In this document: positions 2 through 6,777 of the stretch, piece after piece
Numbering within the stretch: the first letter of the stretch is position 1
Layout of the letters: each line of letters opens with the position of its first letter
Assembly (NCBI RefSeq): GCF_017551775.1
Contig: NZ_JAFZKX010000109.1
Span: 1 to 64,000, forward strand
DNA from: Fibrobacter sp.
GTDB lineage: Bacteria > Fibrobacterota > Fibrobacteria > Fibrobacterales > Fibrobacteraceae
Direction: 5' to 3'
Length of the DNA: 64,000 nucleotides
Made by a program: the position numbers and the translations under genes
Notes under the pieces: model-generated
Database searches by the model: none
What the model saw: the letters and a program-made list of their open reading frames with translations, nothing else
Told to the model about the DNA's origin: nothing

Positions 2-616
2 CCGGAACCGGACATGGTTCGTCTCGTGACTGACCCGGCCTTTGTGGAAGAAATCCGCCGCACGCTTCCGGAACTGCCGGATGCCCGCCGCAAGCGCTTC
101 ATGGACGACTTCGGTGTTTCCGAATACGACGCCCAGGTGCTGACCGAAGACCGCGACGTGAGCGAATGGTACGACACCGCCGCCAAGAACTGCAAGAACG
201 GCAAGGTGCTCGCCAACTGGGTGATTACTGAACTTTTGGCCAAGATGAAGGATCTCGAAGGTGGCCTCGCTGCCCTCAAGATCAAGCCGGAACAGCTCTG
301 CAAGCTCGTGAACCTCATCGCCGACAACACCATCAACGGCAAGATTGCAAAGACGGTCTTCGCCGAAATGTTCGAGACCGGCAAGGATCCCGAAGCTATC
401 GTGAAGGAGAAGGGCCTCGTGCAGGTGACCGACACCGGCGCTATTGAAGAAGTGGTCCGTGCCGTGTGCGCCGAAAACGCAGCCCAGTTTGCCGAATTCA
501 AGGCGGGCAAGGTCGCTCTGAAGGGCTTCCTCGTGGGTATGACCATGCGCAAGTCCGGCGGCAAGGCCAACCCGGGCCTCGTGAACCAGATTCTCGACAA
601 GCTCGCGAAGGAATAA
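2..616 (+). CDS. gatB: Asp/Glu-tRNA amidotransferase subunit B, C-terminal part
   Basis: This is the last 204 residues of GatB, the subunit of the GatCAB complex that amidates mischarged Asp-tRNA(Asn) or Glu-tRNA(Gln) using ammonia released by GatA. The frame is open to the window edge, so the catalytic kinase-like half lies outside. The fragment opens with PEPDMVRLV, typical of the end of the GatB cradle domain. It continues through the helical domain into the YqeY-like tail, with VGMTMRKSGGKANPGLV near the end as in other GatB proteins. GatA is encoded separately at 12635-14053 on the other strand, so the subunits are not in one operon here. The stop overlaps the next ATG by one base (TAATG). 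Confidence 0.93.
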   Translation, partial: PEPDMVRLVTDPAFVEEIRRTLPELPDARRKRFMDDFGVSEYDAQVLTEDRDVSEWYDTAAKNCKNGKVLANWVITELLAKMKDLEGGLAALKIKPEQLCKLVNLIADNTINGKIAKTVFAEMFETGKDPEAIVKEKGLVQVTDTGAIEEVVRAVCAENAAQFAEFKAGKVALKGFLVGMTMRKSGGKANPGLVNQILDKLAKE

Positions 617-1048: not shown

Positions 1049-1052
1049 GTAT

Positions 1053-1184
1053 TATACATGATGTATAGTATTTATTTTAAAACTTAATTTTATTTATGAA
1101 AAATGTTGAATTTTTGCAAAAAACGTCTATTTTGTATAGTATTTTCTATTGACATTCGAAAAATAAGAACGTATATTAATATAC
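1053..1184 (+). promoter_or_regulatory. Promoter and operator-like palindromes before the TIGR02147 gene
   Basis: TTGACA at 1149-1154 and TATATT at 1172-1177 are 17 bp apart, a near-ideal housekeeping promoter. The -10 box is embedded in a perfect 14-bp palindrome, GTATATTAATATAC (1171-1184), which ends at the base before the ATG. A second palindrome, TATACAT-G-ATGTATA, lies at 1053-1067. The decamer GTATAGTATT occurs twice, at 1063-1072 and 1135-1144. There is no ribosome-binding site and the expected +1 falls at about 1184-1185, so the mRNA is probably leaderless. A dimeric repressor bound at 1171-1184 would block RNA polymerase; autoregulation by the downstream protein is inference. Confidence 0.75.
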
Positions 1185-2018
1185 ATGAAATCGATACTCG
1201 AATATAAGGACTACCACCTGTATATGCAGGACTATTATGAAGAACGCAAGCGTCAGGGTGCGTTCTCGTGGCGCGAGTTCTGTAAGAGTGCCGGGTTTTC
1301 TTCGCCTAATTTCTTGAAGCTTGTTTGCATGGGGGACAGTAAACTGGGCAAGCCGAAGGTTGAAAATGTCGCGAATGCCATGGGACTTGTCGGGTTCGAA
1401 AAAGATTATTTCCGCGCGCTTGTCGCGTTCGGCAATGCGAAGAAGGATTCCGACAAGAAGGCTGCCCTTGTCGAAATGGAAAAAATCGCAATGGAACACA
1501 AGGTGCGCGTCGTTGACGGTGATGCCTTCCAGTATTATGAATCTTGGAAGTACCCTGTCTTGAGGGAACTTATCCCGATGATGCCGGGTGCCAACCCCCG
1601 CGATATCGCCGATGTTTGCAAGGAGCACGTGTCGGCCGAAGAAGTCCGGGACGTTTTGAACTTCTTGGTCAAGGCCGGGTTCTTGAAGAAGAACGGCGAG
1701 AAGGTCTATTCGCAGACGGAGCAGACCGTCATCGGCTCGAAGGAGGCTTTGCCCATCGCTATCCGCGCCATGCACAAGGAAATGGCGAACATGGCGGCGC
1801 GTGCCGTCGACCGTTATTCTCCGAATGAACGCTACTTCACCGGGGTCACGCTTAGCGTGAATGAAGAAGCGAACAGGAGGATTATTGCGGAAATAGATGC
1901 CTGCTGCAAGAAGGTTCTCTCTATCGCGAATGAATATGTGGATCAGGATCAGGTTTGTCGAATTAATTTCCAATTTTTCCCTGTTACCGATAAGGTGAAG
2001 GAGACGTCCCATGCTTAG
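1185..2018 (+). CDS. TIGR02147 family protein, probable transcriptional regulator
   Basis: This 277-residue protein has the hallmarks of the Fibrobacter-enriched TIGR02147/DUF4423 family. It opens with YKDYHLYMQDYYEERKR, followed by a helix-turn-helix-like segment (FSWREFCKSAGFSSPNFLKL) and then KVENVANAMGL. A long helical region with a second winged-helix-like part follows (ISAEEV-type VSAEEVRDVLNFLVKAGFL, near residues 150-170). No signal peptide or membrane segment is present, so it should act in the cytoplasm. The gene starts directly at a promoter whose -10 lies in a perfect palindrome. Its last eight bases overlap the start of the first of four lipoproteins. A DNA-binding regulator of that operon is the best guess; family function is not established to my knowledge. 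Confidence 0.8.
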   Translation: MKSILEYKDYHLYMQDYYEERKRQGAFSWREFCKSAGFSSPNFLKLVCMGDSKLGKPKVENVANAMGLVGFEKDYFRALVAFGNAKKDSDKKAALVEMEKIAMEHKVRVVDGDAFQYYESWKYPVLRELIPMMPGANPRDIADVCKEHVSAEEVRDVLNFLVKAGFLKKNGEKVYSQTEQTVIGSKEALPIAIRAMHKEMANMAARAVDRYSPNERYFTGVTLSVNEEANRRIIAEIDACCKKVLSIANEYVDQDQVCRINFQFFPVTDKVKETSHA

Positions 2019-2733
2019 GATTCTTTTTCTTGCCATAGGCGCTATTTTTTCTGTATGCATGGTATCGTGTTCTGGCGATGATGTTGCTGGTGGGACAATC
2101 GATCCGAGTACCATTGCACTGGGTGAAAGTTCGTCTGGTAATGCAGATGTTGAAGAAATGAGCAGTTCGAGCTGTGAAAATTGCAATATCAATATAAGGC
2201 CGAATGACGACGAAAGTTCCTCGAGTCAGCGAGCCGATGCGGGAAGTAGCAGCTCGGGGGGCGACGAAAGAAACACTCCTATTCAGGAATCGTCTTCGTC
2301 GGCAACGGAACAATCCGATGTTATCGTGACGGCAAGAAATTTCTCTCTCGAGTGCTCGGTCGATGTCATCTACGTGGACCTGGCAGAGATTCCTGCGTCG
2401 GAAACGCCTTCCGTTTCTAAGGACGTACTGGCGCCTTACGCTTCCAAGTCTATCGCTGCGGATTCTGTCAATATTATGATAAGCGATTACTTTGCGATTC
2501 CATGTGGTGAGAGCGAGGCGGAAGCTTTTGTAAAACAAACCAATGAGCCGGGAAATGCCTCATTTGGTCTTGCTGGCGATACGCTGTACGTCGATGTTAC
2601 TCGGAGTAAGTCCATGACATATGGATGTGCGTGCGTGGCGCTGGTGAAATTTACGCTGGATGCTAACAATTCCGGCATACAATATACAGTATTTGAACAA
2701 ACAGAAGCGATTCCGCTGGAAGAGCTTGAATAA
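2011..2733 (+). CDS. Lipoprotein with Ser-rich linker, single Cys-repeat domain
   Basis: This is a 240-residue lipoprotein with signal peptide and lipobox MVSC at about residue 20. A low-complexity Ser/Asp linker (residues about 40-105, several SSSS runs) follows, then one C-terminal beta-rich domain. That domain shows the pattern C...GDTLYVDV...CAC...F...YTVFE, which recurs in the next two genes. A good AAGGAG lies 7 nt before the ATG, and the start overlaps the end of the TIGR02147 gene, so translation is probably coupled. Mature protein should be anchored in the outer or inner membrane by its lipid. Function is unknown. Confidence 0.75.
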   Translation: MLRILFLAIGAIFSVCMVSCSGDDVAGGTIDPSTIALGESSSGNADVEEMSSSSCENCNINIRPNDDESSSSQRADAGSSSSGGDERNTPIQESSSSATEQSDVIVTARNFSLECSVDVIYVDLAEIPASETPSVSKDVLAPYASKSIAADSVNIMISDYFAIPCGESEAEAFVKQTNEPGNASFGLAGDTLYVDVTRSKSMTYGCACVALVKFTLDANNSGIQYTVFEQTEAIPLEELE

Positions 2734-2743
2734 GGAGGCTAAC

Positions 2744-4174
2744 ATGAAAAAGATACTTGCTACAGCTGCGGCTCTGTCGCTCATGCTCATTGCTTGCGGA
2801 GATGATTCGCCCGCGAGTGCCGGCGGCCTGGGCTCGGGAGGAATAATTCAGAGAACGGTTGTTTCTCATTCAGGAAAGTGCACTTCTCCTTATGACTTCG
2901 CACTGAAAAAGGAACAAGTCTCGGAAGAACTGCCCAAGGCGTACTTGAATCATGGCGAAGGCGGTTACGAGATACTGATTCAGGATGTGACTGAAAATTG
3001 CGGCATGATGGGGAATTGGATGGCTGAACGTGAAGGCGATACCTTGCGCATTTGGCTTGCTGTGGATTCTTCGATGAACGTGACGGATTGTATCTGCACG
3101 ATGGATCGTTGGTTTGATATTTCGGCTGATGATGCTGATGTCAAATACTTCGAGTATTCTGGAGATGTTTATCAGGTGGTGCTTGGCCCGGCTCCAGCCA
3201 AACAGTCTTCCTCCAGTGTAGCCGAATCTTCGTCGAGTGATACGGAGTCTTCCTCTTCGTTTGCGCTCCCGGTTGAATCGTCTTCGTCGGTGGTTGTAGC
3301 TGGGGATTTGCACCACATAATTACGGATGCCAACGGACAATGCGGTGCGAATAGTAGAAGTAGCGATCCCCTGGTGGATGCAAACGTGGACTATCCCTCT
3401 TTAGATACGGTTCGCGTTCGTGAAGCGGCTATCCCTCCGGTTGCCTATCGCTATGTCGGTACCGAAAGGACGGGCTTTACCATCGAAAACCTTTCGATTA
3501 CCTGCGGCCTTGTTGTCGATACCCTGGATGTCAATGTTTCGGGCGACACGGTTTACGTGAATGCGACTTTCGACCGCACGAATGCGCAGAGGTGCATTTG
3601 CAATTTCAAGATTGAGTTTGCCGTGGAAAACGACCCGGCCTACTCGCATGCGACGGTCCTCGTCTTTGACGAAAATCCCGATTACGAAGGTAATGAACCG
3701 GACATTCTGCCGATTGTCGATATGGACGTGGTTTCCATTGAAGAGGTTGTGGGCACCAAGCAGGCGAAGGACATCAACCTTATGTGCAAGAACGATCGCC
3801 AGACGACCAACGCGCCTGTGATGGCGAGCGATGCGCTGCTCCCGGGAAAGATCGATACTACGGAGAAGGTTACTGTTGCGGGCCGTGTGGTCGGTGACGA
3901 CGGGTTCGATACCATCATTATTCCTGAAGTGATGATGCCTTGCGAAATCGTTTTTGAAAAGTTTGATGTCCATGCGTCCAACGGAACGCTGTATGTCGAA
4001 CCGAAAGTGGATCCAGATAGCCCGATAACCAATTGCATCTGCCCGACACGTGTTACCTTCAAGATAGAGCATAACGAGGCGTTCTCCAATACGAATTATC
4101 TCGTCTTTGACGGGGGAGAGCCGATGCCCTTGAAGAATGGTGTCGTCGTGGATGCATCTGTTCTTGATAACTGA
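2744..4174 (+). CDS. Lipoprotein with one N-terminal module and two Cys-repeat domains
   Basis: This 476-residue lipoprotein (MKKILATAAALSLMLIACG) starts at the ATG with AAGGAGG five bases upstream. The longer open frame beginning at 2660 is overlap with the previous gene. Residues about 45-145 form a module also found in the next two proteins (GKC...EGGYEILI...C...GDTLRIW...CIC...FDISADDADVKYFE...YQVVLGP). After a Ser-rich linker come two copies of the C...DTLDV/GTLYV...CIC domain seen in the previous gene. The repeated spacing of one Cys followed by CxC suggests a disulfide pattern. Surface location is inferred from the lipobox; ligand unknown. Confidence 0.75.
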   Translation: MKKILATAAALSLMLIACGDDSPASAGGLGSGGIIQRTVVSHSGKCTSPYDFALKKEQVSEELPKAYLNHGEGGYEILIQDVTENCGMMGNWMAEREGDTLRIWLAVDSSMNVTDCICTMDRWFDISADDADVKYFEYSGDVYQVVLGPAPAKQSSSSVAESSSSDTESSSSFALPVESSSSVVVAGDLHHIITDANGQCGANSRSSDPLVDANVDYPSLDTVRVREAAIPPVAYRYVGTERTGFTIENLSITCGLVVDTLDVNVSGDTVYVNATFDRTNAQRCICNFKIEFAVENDPAYSHATVLVFDENPDYEGNEPDILPIVDMDVVSIEEVVGTKQAKDINLMCKNDRQTTNAPVMASDALLPGKIDTTEKVTVAGRVVGDDGFDTIIIPEVMMPCEIVFEKFDVHASNGTLYVEPKVDPDSPITNCICPTRVTFKIEHNEAFSNTNYLVFDGGEPMPLKNGVVVDASVLDN

Positions 4175-4206
4175 TGTTTGACTTTAACTGAAGAAGGAAA
4201 ATGAAT

Positions 4207-5601
4207 ATGAGAAAGATTTTTGCATGTGCTACCGCTTTGTCGCTTATGCTTGTCGCCTGTGGGGACGATGCCTCTTCGACATCGCCTAAACAGTCGACCG
4301 GAGGGGAAAAGAAAACGAATGCGGCGAGCAGTTACCATCCTGGAGAGTGTCTTACCGAGATTGCTTGCGCAAAGAATGAGGACGGAAAGGCCTACCTGAT
4401 TTCTGGAGAAAACGGTGGCTATCAATTGGTTGTCCAGTTGGTGCCGTTCCCGCGCAGCGCTTGGATTGAAGGCGATTTCTTCTCTGAACGTTCTGGAGAT
4501 ACCTTGTATGTCTGGGATGAAAAGAAATATTCAGATGAAACCATAGCGATGCAGCAACCTTGCGTTGCAGACCTCGTGTTTGATATTTCTGCGGAAGATG
4601 CGGATATCAAGTTCTTTAAACACTTTGACGATGTTTACGAGGTGGTACCCGGTCCGGTAGCGAAATACGATATCGTATGCAATATAGAGTCTTCTTCGGG
4701 CATGAATAATCCTGCCTCGAGCGGGTCGGTCGAATCGTCCAGTTCGCAGGGCACGTCTTCTGCGGTACAGCCGGGTTCTTCGTCTAGCGTGACGCCGCCG
4801 AGTTCATCTTCGCGCCAGGTTTACAACGGCCCTGTGCCGCTGAAAAGTATCACGGCGACTTGTCAAGATAAGGACATGACGGATGTTCCGGTTGTACCTC
4901 CGTCACCTACGGCATATCTCAGCGTCTCCAACAGCTTTGCGCAAATTGACTTGTTCAATGTCAATCTGACGTATGCTTGCGATTCCGCATCGCAGATGGC
5001 TTTCTGGGATAGTCTGAAGGCGGACAATACCGTGGCATCGGTTATCGGGGATACGCTCTTCGTGAACTTCAAGCGCTTCGACGAGAAGGGCGTGGAGTAC
5101 AAGTGCGGATGCACGGCCAAAGTGGAATTTACGTTTGACGAGCAATATGCCGGCTTTGGCTACACGGCGTTCGAGAACAACAGGCCTCCGCTTGAACTGG
5201 GGCATAGACTGGTCAACCAGCCGGATCCGAGCTACCAGAAGATTGAAAAGGCCGATGCGAAGTGCGTCAACAATGACCCGACGGAAGATCCGCTGACCGA
5301 TGCCGCAATCCCTCCCGTGGCGCATATGCATGTGAACGGCGATTCGGCGCAGATTGTTATTGAAAGCGTTGAGGTTGTCTGCGGAACGGAAATCGAGAGC
5401 GTCGAGGTTCAGGTAAGGGACGGTATGCTTTATGTGACGCCGTATTACGATCCTGCGAGTAGGCTGGCGGATTGCATCTGCTCGACGAAGATTAGCTTCA
5501 ACGTGAAGGCGCTGGACCTGTATAAAGAGGCCACCTTGCTGGTCTATGACGATGGTAGCGGCTTTAATCTCAGCAACAAGATGCGTCTGATTGTAGAATA
5601 A
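4207..5601 (+). CDS. Lipoprotein paralog with N-terminal module and two Cys-repeat domains
   Basis: This is a paralog of the preceding gene with the same layout. The signal peptide has lipobox LVACG. The first module (residues about 40-155) contains GGYQLVVQ, SERSGDTLYVWD and FDISAEDADIKFFK. A Ser/Pro linker (about 160-205) precedes two repeats ending in CGCTAKVEFTFD and CICSTKISFNV. I chose ATG 4207 (MRKIF) over 4201 because AAGGA at 4194-4198 is 8 nt from the former and only 2 nt from the latter. It lies 32 bp behind the previous gene, in the same operon. Function is unknown; tandem paralogy suggests diversification of a surface module. Confidence 0.73.
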   Translation: MRKIFACATALSLMLVACGDDASSTSPKQSTGGEKKTNAASSYHPGECLTEIACAKNEDGKAYLISGENGGYQLVVQLVPFPRSAWIEGDFFSERSGDTLYVWDEKKYSDETIAMQQPCVADLVFDISAEDADIKFFKHFDDVYEVVPGPVAKYDIVCNIESSSGMNNPASSGSVESSSSQGTSSAVQPGSSSSVTPPSSSSRQVYNGPVPLKSITATCQDKDMTDVPVVPPSPTAYLSVSNSFAQIDLFNVNLTYACDSASQMAFWDSLKADNTVASVIGDTLFVNFKRFDEKGVEYKCGCTAKVEFTFDEQYAGFGYTAFENNRPPLELGHRLVNQPDPSYQKIEKADAKCVNNDPTEDPLTDAAIPPVAHMHVNGDSAQIVIESVEVVCGTEIESVEVQVRDGMLYVTPYYDPASRLADCICSTKISFNVKALDLYKEATLLVYDDGSGFNLSNKMRLIVE

Positions 5602-5652: not shown

Positions 5653-6777
5653 ATGAAAAAGATTTTTGCTCTTGCGGCGGCCTTTGCTTTCTTGCTCTTG
5701 CCGCTCTCGTTCATGGCCTGCGGTGGCGATTCGCCGGCGGATGCCGATGGGAAGAAGGTAAATGGGGAGGGGAGTCTCCATGTCGGAGAGTGCGATTATT
5801 CTGAAAATTATTGCTCGTGGGAAAAGAATGCGTTCATATTGCAAAGCGATGAGGGCGGCTATCAGGTACTTCTCAAGGGAATACAGGTAACATCCATTAG
5901 GATTGATGGCGATTATTTCTCCGAACGTTCTGGGGATACCTTGCATGTGTGGGATGATGTCGAAAGGGTTGACGAGATAAAGATAACGCTGGATTGCCCT
6001 GTTGAAGCCAAGTTCGATATATCCGCGGCAGATGCTGATATCAAGTATTTCAAGTTCCATAGTGATGTCTATAAGATTCTGCCCGTTGATTCGAGCTATG
6101 AAAACTCATCTTGCCATGTTGATACGAGCGCTTTGGAGAAATCTTCTTCCTCTGGCCAGGATGTAGAGTCTTCTTCAAGTGTGGGTGAGGTGCCTTCTTC
6201 TAGCCAAGATGTTGAGCCCTCTTCCTCTGACGGGGATGTGGAACAGTCCTCTTCGAGCGTTCCACCGCAACAGTCTTCTTCAAGCGTACCGCCGGAACAG
6301 TCTTCCTCGAGTGTACCGCCGGAGCAGTCTTCTTCGAGTGTCCCACCGCAACAATCATCTTCGAGCGTACTGCCGGGAGATTATTCACCCCGCGATACGA
6401 TAAAAATGAGCTTCAAGAACTGTTACGAAAGTCCTTACAACAGGCCGGCCCCGTTGAATAAACCGGCCTTGCTGAAAGAGGCTGCGGAAGATTTTCCGCT
6501 GGCGTACCTCTATCACGAAGGCGACAAGTACCAGCTGATGATTCCGAAGGTTCGTGACTACTGCGGTTTCGAAAAGGTGATGATGGACGTGGGGCGTTCT
6601 GGTGACACGCTGAAGCTCGATATCGTGGCGATGATCGCGACGGCATGCTTGTGCACGAGCGACCATTGGTTCGATATTGAGGAGAGGGATGCTGACATCA
6701 AGTTCTTTGCTCTCAAGCTTTACCAGAAAAAACTGCAGGTGTATGAAGTGGTTCCCGGCCCCGCACCGGAAGAGTAA
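5653..6777 (+). CDS. Lipoprotein paralog with two copies of the GGYQ module and a repeat linker
   Basis: This 374-residue lipoprotein (lipobox FMACG) has AGGAGG 5 nt before the ATG. It carries two copies of the module found once in the two preceding proteins. The first, residues about 35-155, contains SERSGDTLHVWD and FDISAADADIKYFK. The second, about 255-372, contains GRSGDTLKLDI, CLCTSDHWFDIE and ADIKFFA. Between them is a linker of five near-identical 9-residue units (SSSSVPPxQ) encoded by 27-bp tandem repeats at 6241-6375. It is the last gene of the TIGR02147 operon and is followed by a strong terminator. Unlike its neighbours it has two copies of the first module and none of the second domain. 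Confidence 0.75.
   Translation: MKKIFALAAAFAFLLLPLSFMACGGDSPADADGKKVNGEGSLHVGECDYSENYCSWEKNAFILQSDEGGYQVLLKGIQVTSIRIDGDYFSERSGDTLHVWDDVERVDEIKITLDCPVEAKFDISAADADIKYFKFHSDVYKILPVDSSYENSSCHVDTSALEKSSSSGQDVESSSSVGEVPSSSQDVEPSSSDGDVEQSSSSVPPQQSSSSVPPEQSSSSVPPEQSSSSVPPQQSSSSVLPGDYSPRDTIKMSFKNCYESPYNRPAPLNKPALLKEAAEDFPLAYLYHEGDKYQLMIPKVRDYCGFEKVMMDVGRSGDTLKLDIVAMIATACLCTSDHWFDIEERDADIKFFALKLYQKKLQVYEVVPGPAPEE
6241..6375 (+). repeat. Five 27-bp tandem repeats in coding sequence
   Basis: Units start at 6241, 6268, 6295, 6322 and 6349. Each encodes (E/Q)QSSSSVPP-type linker residues and they differ only at a few, mostly silent, positions. The number of units is likely to vary between strains by slippage without breaking the frame. 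Confidence 0.85.

Follow-up and report, generated by a model that had tools for sequence, protein, structure and literature searches.

TIGR02147 proteins as probable sequence-specific autoregulators of leaderless lipoprotein operons in Fibrobacter

A TIGR02147 (DUF4423) protein of Fibrobacter is probably a sequence-specific autoregulator of the leaderless operon that couples its gene to a lipoprotein gene, a reading that comparison of sequences leads us to rate at a probability of about 0.8. The gene under study lies in a 64,000-nucleotide stretch of Fibrobacter DNA (the window) from contig 109; the draft genome measures 3.2 Mb, and a family search finds 31 TIGR02147 genes in this host. Computation reveals a two-site layout upstream of such genes, a wording of the sites that is specific to each gene, and covariation between the variable bases and residues of the adjacent protein. 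An earlier note on the window gene had centred its model on a palindrome covering the -10 box; the family signal is to be found in two further elements that the note had also listed, a second palindrome and a repeated decamer, which together form a putative two-site operator.

Self-regulating XRE proteins are well known. What would be new here is a target and a role for TIGR02147/DUF4423, an operator of fixed two-site design, and private operator words among paralogs of one genome. Literature searches on TIGR02147, DUF4423, and Fibrobacter promoters, operators and lipoproteins yielded no description of this regulation and no function for the family. One DUF4423 protein, Bd3700, is tabulated among predator proteins that are upregulated (PMC12546842).

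Methods

Loci were taken from six Fibrobacter genomes (G000, 30 of 31 plus the last by its place; G005, 28 of 28; G008, 30 of 33; G001, 30 of 35; G006, 30 of 45; G019, 30 of 34) and from one genome of another genus (G034, 30 of 56). Loci L040 and L180 are one gene, and so are L042 and L206; the joint-caller totals for distinct genes are 7/30 in G006 and 9/29 in G019.

Operator sites were called in two ways. Independent calling applied a weak template, AT...AC and GT...AT on either side of a gap, and located the distal and the proximal site each without the other. A joint caller searched for both sites together, with a spacing of 70-74 bp permitted by design and a threshold set at 99% of shuffles. 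Two other procedures were set aside: a general palindrome scan was swamped by the GC-rich terminators of upstream genes, and a first comparison of own with swapped sites in fixed windows gave a weak signal (permutation fractions 0.033, 0.022, 0.002 and 0.001), since the distance between module and ATG varies.

Covariation was analysed without the use of any structure. The 61 genes entered were chosen on their DNA alone (both L042 and L206 are among them) and reduced to 40 genes of less than 85% protein identity, with 231 variable columns; one of L042 and L206 was kept. The tree for the covariation test was built without the HTH columns. Correlating residues with bases is a method reportedly used for MerR regulators.

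Results

The TIGR02147 gene and its product

The window protein scores 282.1 bits with NCBIfam TIGR02147 (Fsuc_second; cut-off 50), in a match that spans residues 1-269, and 81.7 with Pfam PF14394 (DUF4423; cut-off 30). Since the profile match starts at residue 1, the ATG at 1185 is the right start (Table 1). Neither model's description names a function. Each of the 41 genomes compared within the phylum has between 2 and 61 matches to the window protein.

The AlphaFold model (mean pLDDT 88; 93-98 over residues 11-90) presents a five-helix HTH fold in its N-terminal domain, comparable to HigA (Z 8.7), P22 c2 (7.6) and 434 Cro (6.8). The earlier note had taken the product for an HTH protein and a candidate binder. 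The folds bear out the HTH, and the protein very probably binds DNA upstream of its own gene, but the -10 palindrome is not supported as its site. Foldseek gave every hit an E-value above 0.2. Peptide-sensing RRNPP regulators such as ComR and PrgX combine an HTH with a TPR-like domain that binds the peptide; ComR heads the Foldseek list weakly (E 0.23, rmsd 19.9), and the C-terminal part aligns with winged helices instead. Sequence-profile matches of the HTH are weak as well (3kxa, E 0.0088; C.BclI, 0.075; PhiH1 repressor-like, 0.4; C.AhdI, 2.3). A Pfam scan at E 0.01 returned DUF4423 alone and no Pfam HTH family, so the tie to XRE proteins is one of fold, not of curated family.

Table 1. Features of the TIGR02147 locus in the window and of its protein
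Feature	Position	Strand	Basis or remark
Distal operator palindrome, ATTATAC-atgat-GTATAGT (putative)	1051..1069 (extended arms 1050-1070)	+	Conservation and genome search
Proximal operator half-site GTATAGT, within TTTTGTATAGTATTT (putative)	1134..1140	+	8 bp ahead of -35
-35 element TTGACA	1149..1154	+	
Perfect 14-bp palindrome GTATATTAATATAC over -10	1171..1184	.	Possible accessory site, window subclade only
-10 element TATATT, 7 nt ahead of ATG	1172..1177	+	Leaderless mRNA predicted
TIGR02147/DUF4423 gene, 277 aa	1185..2018	+	Full-length profile match and AlphaFold model
XRE-like HTH	residues about 6-90		Model and fold comparison
Predicted recognition helix (SSPNFLKLVC)	residues around 39-48		
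Winged-helix-like domain	residues about 109-184		Model and fold comparison
C-terminal helices	C-terminal part		Model
First downstream gene: lipoprotein, Ser-rich linker, N-terminal motif AGGTIDPS	2011..2733	+	8-base overlap with TIGR02147 gene
Three further tandem genes, putative lipoproteins	2744-4174, 4201-5601, 5653-6777	+	

A conserved two-site operator

The second palindrome (1050-1070) and the repeated TGTATAGTATTT (1062-1073 and 1133-1144) lie upstream of the window gene where the earlier note had placed them, the proximal half-site standing 71 bp downstream of the right half of the distal palindrome. Among 25 close sequences (24 relatives and the window), 24 keep 6-7 of the 7 arm pairs of the distal palindrome, and the set also keeps the proximal half-site at 70-73 bp from it. 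The relatives found by name (n=27) are all Fibrobacter or Fibrobacterales metagenome assemblies. Allowing at most one mismatch, the distal palindrome occurs at two places in the whole 3.2-Mb genome, upstream of the window gene and upstream of a paralog 85% identical to it. Both upstream elements are far beyond chance. The distal palindrome was also considered as a terminator, a role that is ruled out because it is AT-rich and located after the terminator at 1019-1041.

Private words in a common layout

The layout common to Fibrobacter TIGR02147 paralogs is ATz'y'x'AC-N4/5-GTxyzAT, followed 70-74 bp further on by GTxyzAT, where xyz is specific to the gene. With independent calling, distal and proximal xyz agree at 1.44 of 3 positions over 140 genes, where permutation gives 1.02; among the 28 strongest palindromes the agreement is 2.71, where permutation gives 1.55. 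The observed level was reached in 0 of 5,000 permutations in either case. Words in the host genome include GTTGCAT (L021, with ATGCAAC-N5-GTTGCAT as distal and GTTGCAT as proximal site), GTTTCAT (L022 and L014), GTATCAT (L024) and GTAGTAT (L017); locus L084 of G005 has GTGTTAT.

The joint caller finds the two-site layout at 10 of the 31 TIGR02147 genes of the host, compared with 1 of 123 control upstreams from that genome. Over the six Fibrobacter genomes its calls amount to 10/31, 7/28, 9/30, 12/30, 7/30 and 9/29 distinct genes, or 54 of 178 in total. The earlier note had staked its proposal on there being palindromes upstream of other TIGR02147 genes, and the proposal survives this test of its own: they precede 56 of 181 same-genus genes, as compared with 52 of 1,810 shuffled sequences and 10 of 123 controls. 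When four operator palindromes were sought in the whole genome, they had 2, 3, 1 and 1 sites, six of these seven being upstream of TIGR02147 genes. A perfect palindrome of the GTTTCAT type at C60:4775-4793 (L288) is intergenic, has no TIGR02147 gene nearby, and is a possible outside target.

Other clades use different layouts or none. None of the 31 loci searched in the other genus, where 30 of the 56 family loci were taken in, has the two-site layout; an AC-N4/5-GT palindrome is present in 5 of the 31, with 1.0 expected from the rest of these loci, which is mostly coding. Several variants were observed. One clade with GTGTTC/GTATTC words (L005, L006, L007, L009 and L067) has a distal cluster of three alternating half-sites and, in most members, a proximal half-site that overlaps the -35 region. 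Divergent TIGR02147 genes carry palindromes resembling GTTTAC-N4-GTAAAC in which the AC-gap-GT core is kept, both in the other genus (L221, L230, L231 and L235) and at L004, L063, L095 and L125. A leadered clade (L075, L069, L070, L011 and L012) bears gene-specific direct repeats, for instance TATGTCGTAAAA/TATGTCATAAAA, just upstream of -35 and further up.

Covariation between the recognition helix and the operator word

Among the 40 genes, which include three probably wrong operator calls (L005, L121 and L129), residue 41 is the best of the 231 columns for base x, with a corrected mutual information of 0.86 against 0.46 for the next column. Proline at this residue accompanies A in 25 genes, and Ser, Ala or Asp accompany T or G in 14, leaving one exception. 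For base y the top column is residue 46, at 0.66 with the runner-up at 0.38; here Leu goes with T, Val mostly with G, and Met or Asp mostly with C. For base z, residue 42 comes third at 0.43, the best column being residue 99 at 0.47; Asn goes mostly with A or T, and Thr, Ser or Gly mostly with C. Some covariation is seen outside the HTH too, at residues 99, 58 and 181.

On the tree built without the HTH, gains or losses of Pro41 and of x=A share five of six branches (0.49 expected; 0 of 5,000 placements). Residue 46 and y share three branches (P 0.008), residue 42 and z give P 0.06, and none of six mismatched residue-base pairs falls below 0.06. When 251 columns are ranked by shared branches, residue 41 is first for x, residue 46 is tied second for y with residue 30 above it, and residue 42 is outside the top six for z. 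The rule for x and z had been noted before the genes of G006 and G019 entered; with L042/L206 left aside, testable genes from these genomes obey it in 12 of 13 cases for x and in 3 of 3 for z, but most of these genes are orthologs of discovery genes.

The profile alignment with C.BclI places residue 46 in helix 3. By this alignment and by comparison with the 434 repressor, residues 41, 42 and 46 are positions 1, 2 and 6 of helix 3, the classical base-contact positions; we take them to occupy the places of Gln28, Gln29 and Gln33 in the 434 repressor. That the paralog-variable bases track the recognition helix of the adjacent protein argues strongly for binding, and the TIGR02147 protein very probably binds its own operator.

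Lipoprotein partners and leaderless starts

GatB and lipoprotein genes are the neighbours of the window gene. The tandem putative lipoprotein genes that follow the first one probably belong to the same operon; at the cut-offs applied, none of the four downstream proteins has a match in NCBIfam or Pfam. Directly after each of the host's 31 TIGR02147 genes comes an ORF on the same strand whose N-terminus resembles a secretion signal; in 27 of the 31 this next ORF has a lipobox pattern, against 17 of 119 control genes. An N-terminal motif marks 19 of the 31 partners and 0 of 40 other lipoproteins, by a pattern fitted after the host and G034 sequences had been seen. Following the lipid cysteine, the motif reads about AGGTxExxN in Fibrobacter and GTETGN/EIGNP in the other genus (L214-L243). 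It may be a sorting signal, a processing site or a feedback peptide.

A -10-like hexamer precedes the start by 4-12 nt in 25 of the host's 31 TIGR02147 genes compared with 22 of 123 controls, whereas Shine-Dalgarno-like motifs are found at 6 of 31 compared with 35 of 123. The distance from -10 to start is 6-9 nt in 33 of the 40 genes of the covariation set. As the -10 box of the window gene abuts the ATG, its mRNA is probably leaderless, and leaderless transcripts are predicted for most of the TIGR02147 family. Loci L010-L012 differ in having long leaders with Shine-Dalgarno sites.

The promoter and the sign of regulation

The promoter of the window gene is near-consensus, as the earlier note had it, with 11 of 12 consensus matches and a spacing of 17 bp. 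With the operator upstream of -35 in most called genes, repression and activation are both allowed. We slightly favour negative autoregulation, because the promoter is near-consensus and because the proximal site lies inside the promoter in some paralogs. The same operator could also serve autoactivation, the bound complex recruiting RNA polymerase in a positive feedback that might amount to a bistable switch. We hold this to be somewhat less probable: the proximal half-site lies just upstream of -35, the usual position of an activator, in most called genes (29 of 40 at 35-38 bp from the start of -10), and genes whose proximal site is closer to -10 have poor -35 boxes; however, the -35 of the window promoter and of many others matches the consensus at 5-6 of 6 positions, so that an activator should be needless. 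Distances from the proximal site to -10 cluster near 15, 24 and 37 bp, which is no more than a hint of helical phasing.

The model of the earlier note, in which protein bound to the -10 palindrome represses transcription, now appears unlikely. The perfect 14-bp palindrome does exist and directly precedes the ATG, and each arm shares 6 of its 7 bases with the half-site of the gene (GTATATT against GTATAGT). Its left arm, however, is the -10 box itself; GTATATT is an ordinary -10 in paralogs with unrelated operators (L011, L012, L017 and L022), and the arms are oriented opposite to those of the distal palindrome. Such a palindrome arises in 7.9% of 20,000 Markov-1 draws (144 nt, same composition), and the window as a whole contains six perfect 14-bp palindromes. 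Six same-genus genomes supply 179 distinct TIGR02147 upstreams, and that of the window gene is the only one to have a palindrome of at least 12 bp at -10. Within the 25 close sequences it is perfect in three (the window and two close relatives), retains 6 of 7 pairs in four, and is broken in 18, with at most four pairs. It is therefore missing from most relatives and paralogs while the distal palindrome and the proximal half-site are kept, and it is weak evidence, not the family signal; it is possibly an accessory site in the window subclade only.

A reading in which other regulators or nucleoid proteins bind the repeated motifs and TIGR02147 has a different role is very improbable: the motifs are AT-rich, chance AT-rich repeats do occur in such DNA and a plain repeat search is noisy, but the gene-specific words track the recognition-helix residues of the adjacent protein, also on the HTH-free tree, and the two-site layout is found in 1 of 123 controls.

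Discussion

According to our preferred reading, autoregulation through the two-site operator, the TIGR02147 protein would head and regulate its own leaderless lipoprotein operon. Its N-terminal XRE-like HTH would read half-sites of 7 bp, GTxyz(A/G)T (GTATAGT/GTATAAT at the window gene), in which base x would be set by residue 41 of the recognition helix, y by residue 46 and z probably by residue 42. A dimer would occupy the distal palindrome and, about seven turns of the helix away, another subunit or one half of a dimer would sit on the proximal half-site; the complex may bridge or wrap the A-tract-rich DNA between the two to control the promoter. Each paralog with a called operator would thus be wired mainly to its own operon. 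Physical binding, the geometry of dimer or loop, and the sign of regulation are what we infer from the layout, the words and the covariation.

Several known systems resemble parts of this scheme. The fold of the N-terminal domain is common to XRE, or lambda-repressor-like, regulators (434 Cro, 434 repressor, P22 c2 and HigA; Z 6.8-8.7), but the window protein adds a winged-helix-like domain and C-terminal helices, and it has a lipoprotein partner and no phage switch. HigA-type antitoxins offer the closest solved folds of this domain and, by the titles of their structures, bind their own operator; here the partner is a lipoprotein instead, and no toxin family was matched among the four downstream proteins. 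The C proteins of restriction-modification systems regulate themselves through paired operators, and their genes lie beside restriction-modification genes. C.BclI and C.AhdI have a weak HTH profile similarity to the window protein (E 0.075 and 2.3). The matched C proteins are of 74-77 aa, whereas the window protein has 277 aa, two predicted domains and lipoprotein neighbours; by the marks of a C protein (small, single-domain, restriction-modification neighbours), it is not one. In Bacteroides PUL repertoires, paralogous regulators are numerous and each lies next to a surface-lipoprotein operon of its own. The TIGR02147 arrangement of many paralogs beside lipoproteins resembles them; the regulator class differs, and the detected targets of the window operator are limited to its own operon and that of a near-identical paralog.

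Our results indicate that many TIGR02147 copies in a gut bacterium may each read a private word in front of the gene that encodes them, and thereby govern both that gene and the surface lipoprotein gene next to it. A bolder picture, which we offer as speculation, is of dozens of mutually insulated, self-wired switches, one leaderless operon each, told apart by a private word in a fixed operator of about seven turns; the lipoprotein motif AGGTxExxN would act in sorting or feedback, combinatorial diversity of the cell surface would follow, and the paralogs would embody a natural recognition code. With the target sequence, the reading residues and the controlled operon all named, the function proposed for TIGR02147/DUF4423 is testable. 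A large family would thereby gain a directly testable function, and its paralogs, of which many have a separate operator, would provide a natural data set for the HTH recognition code.
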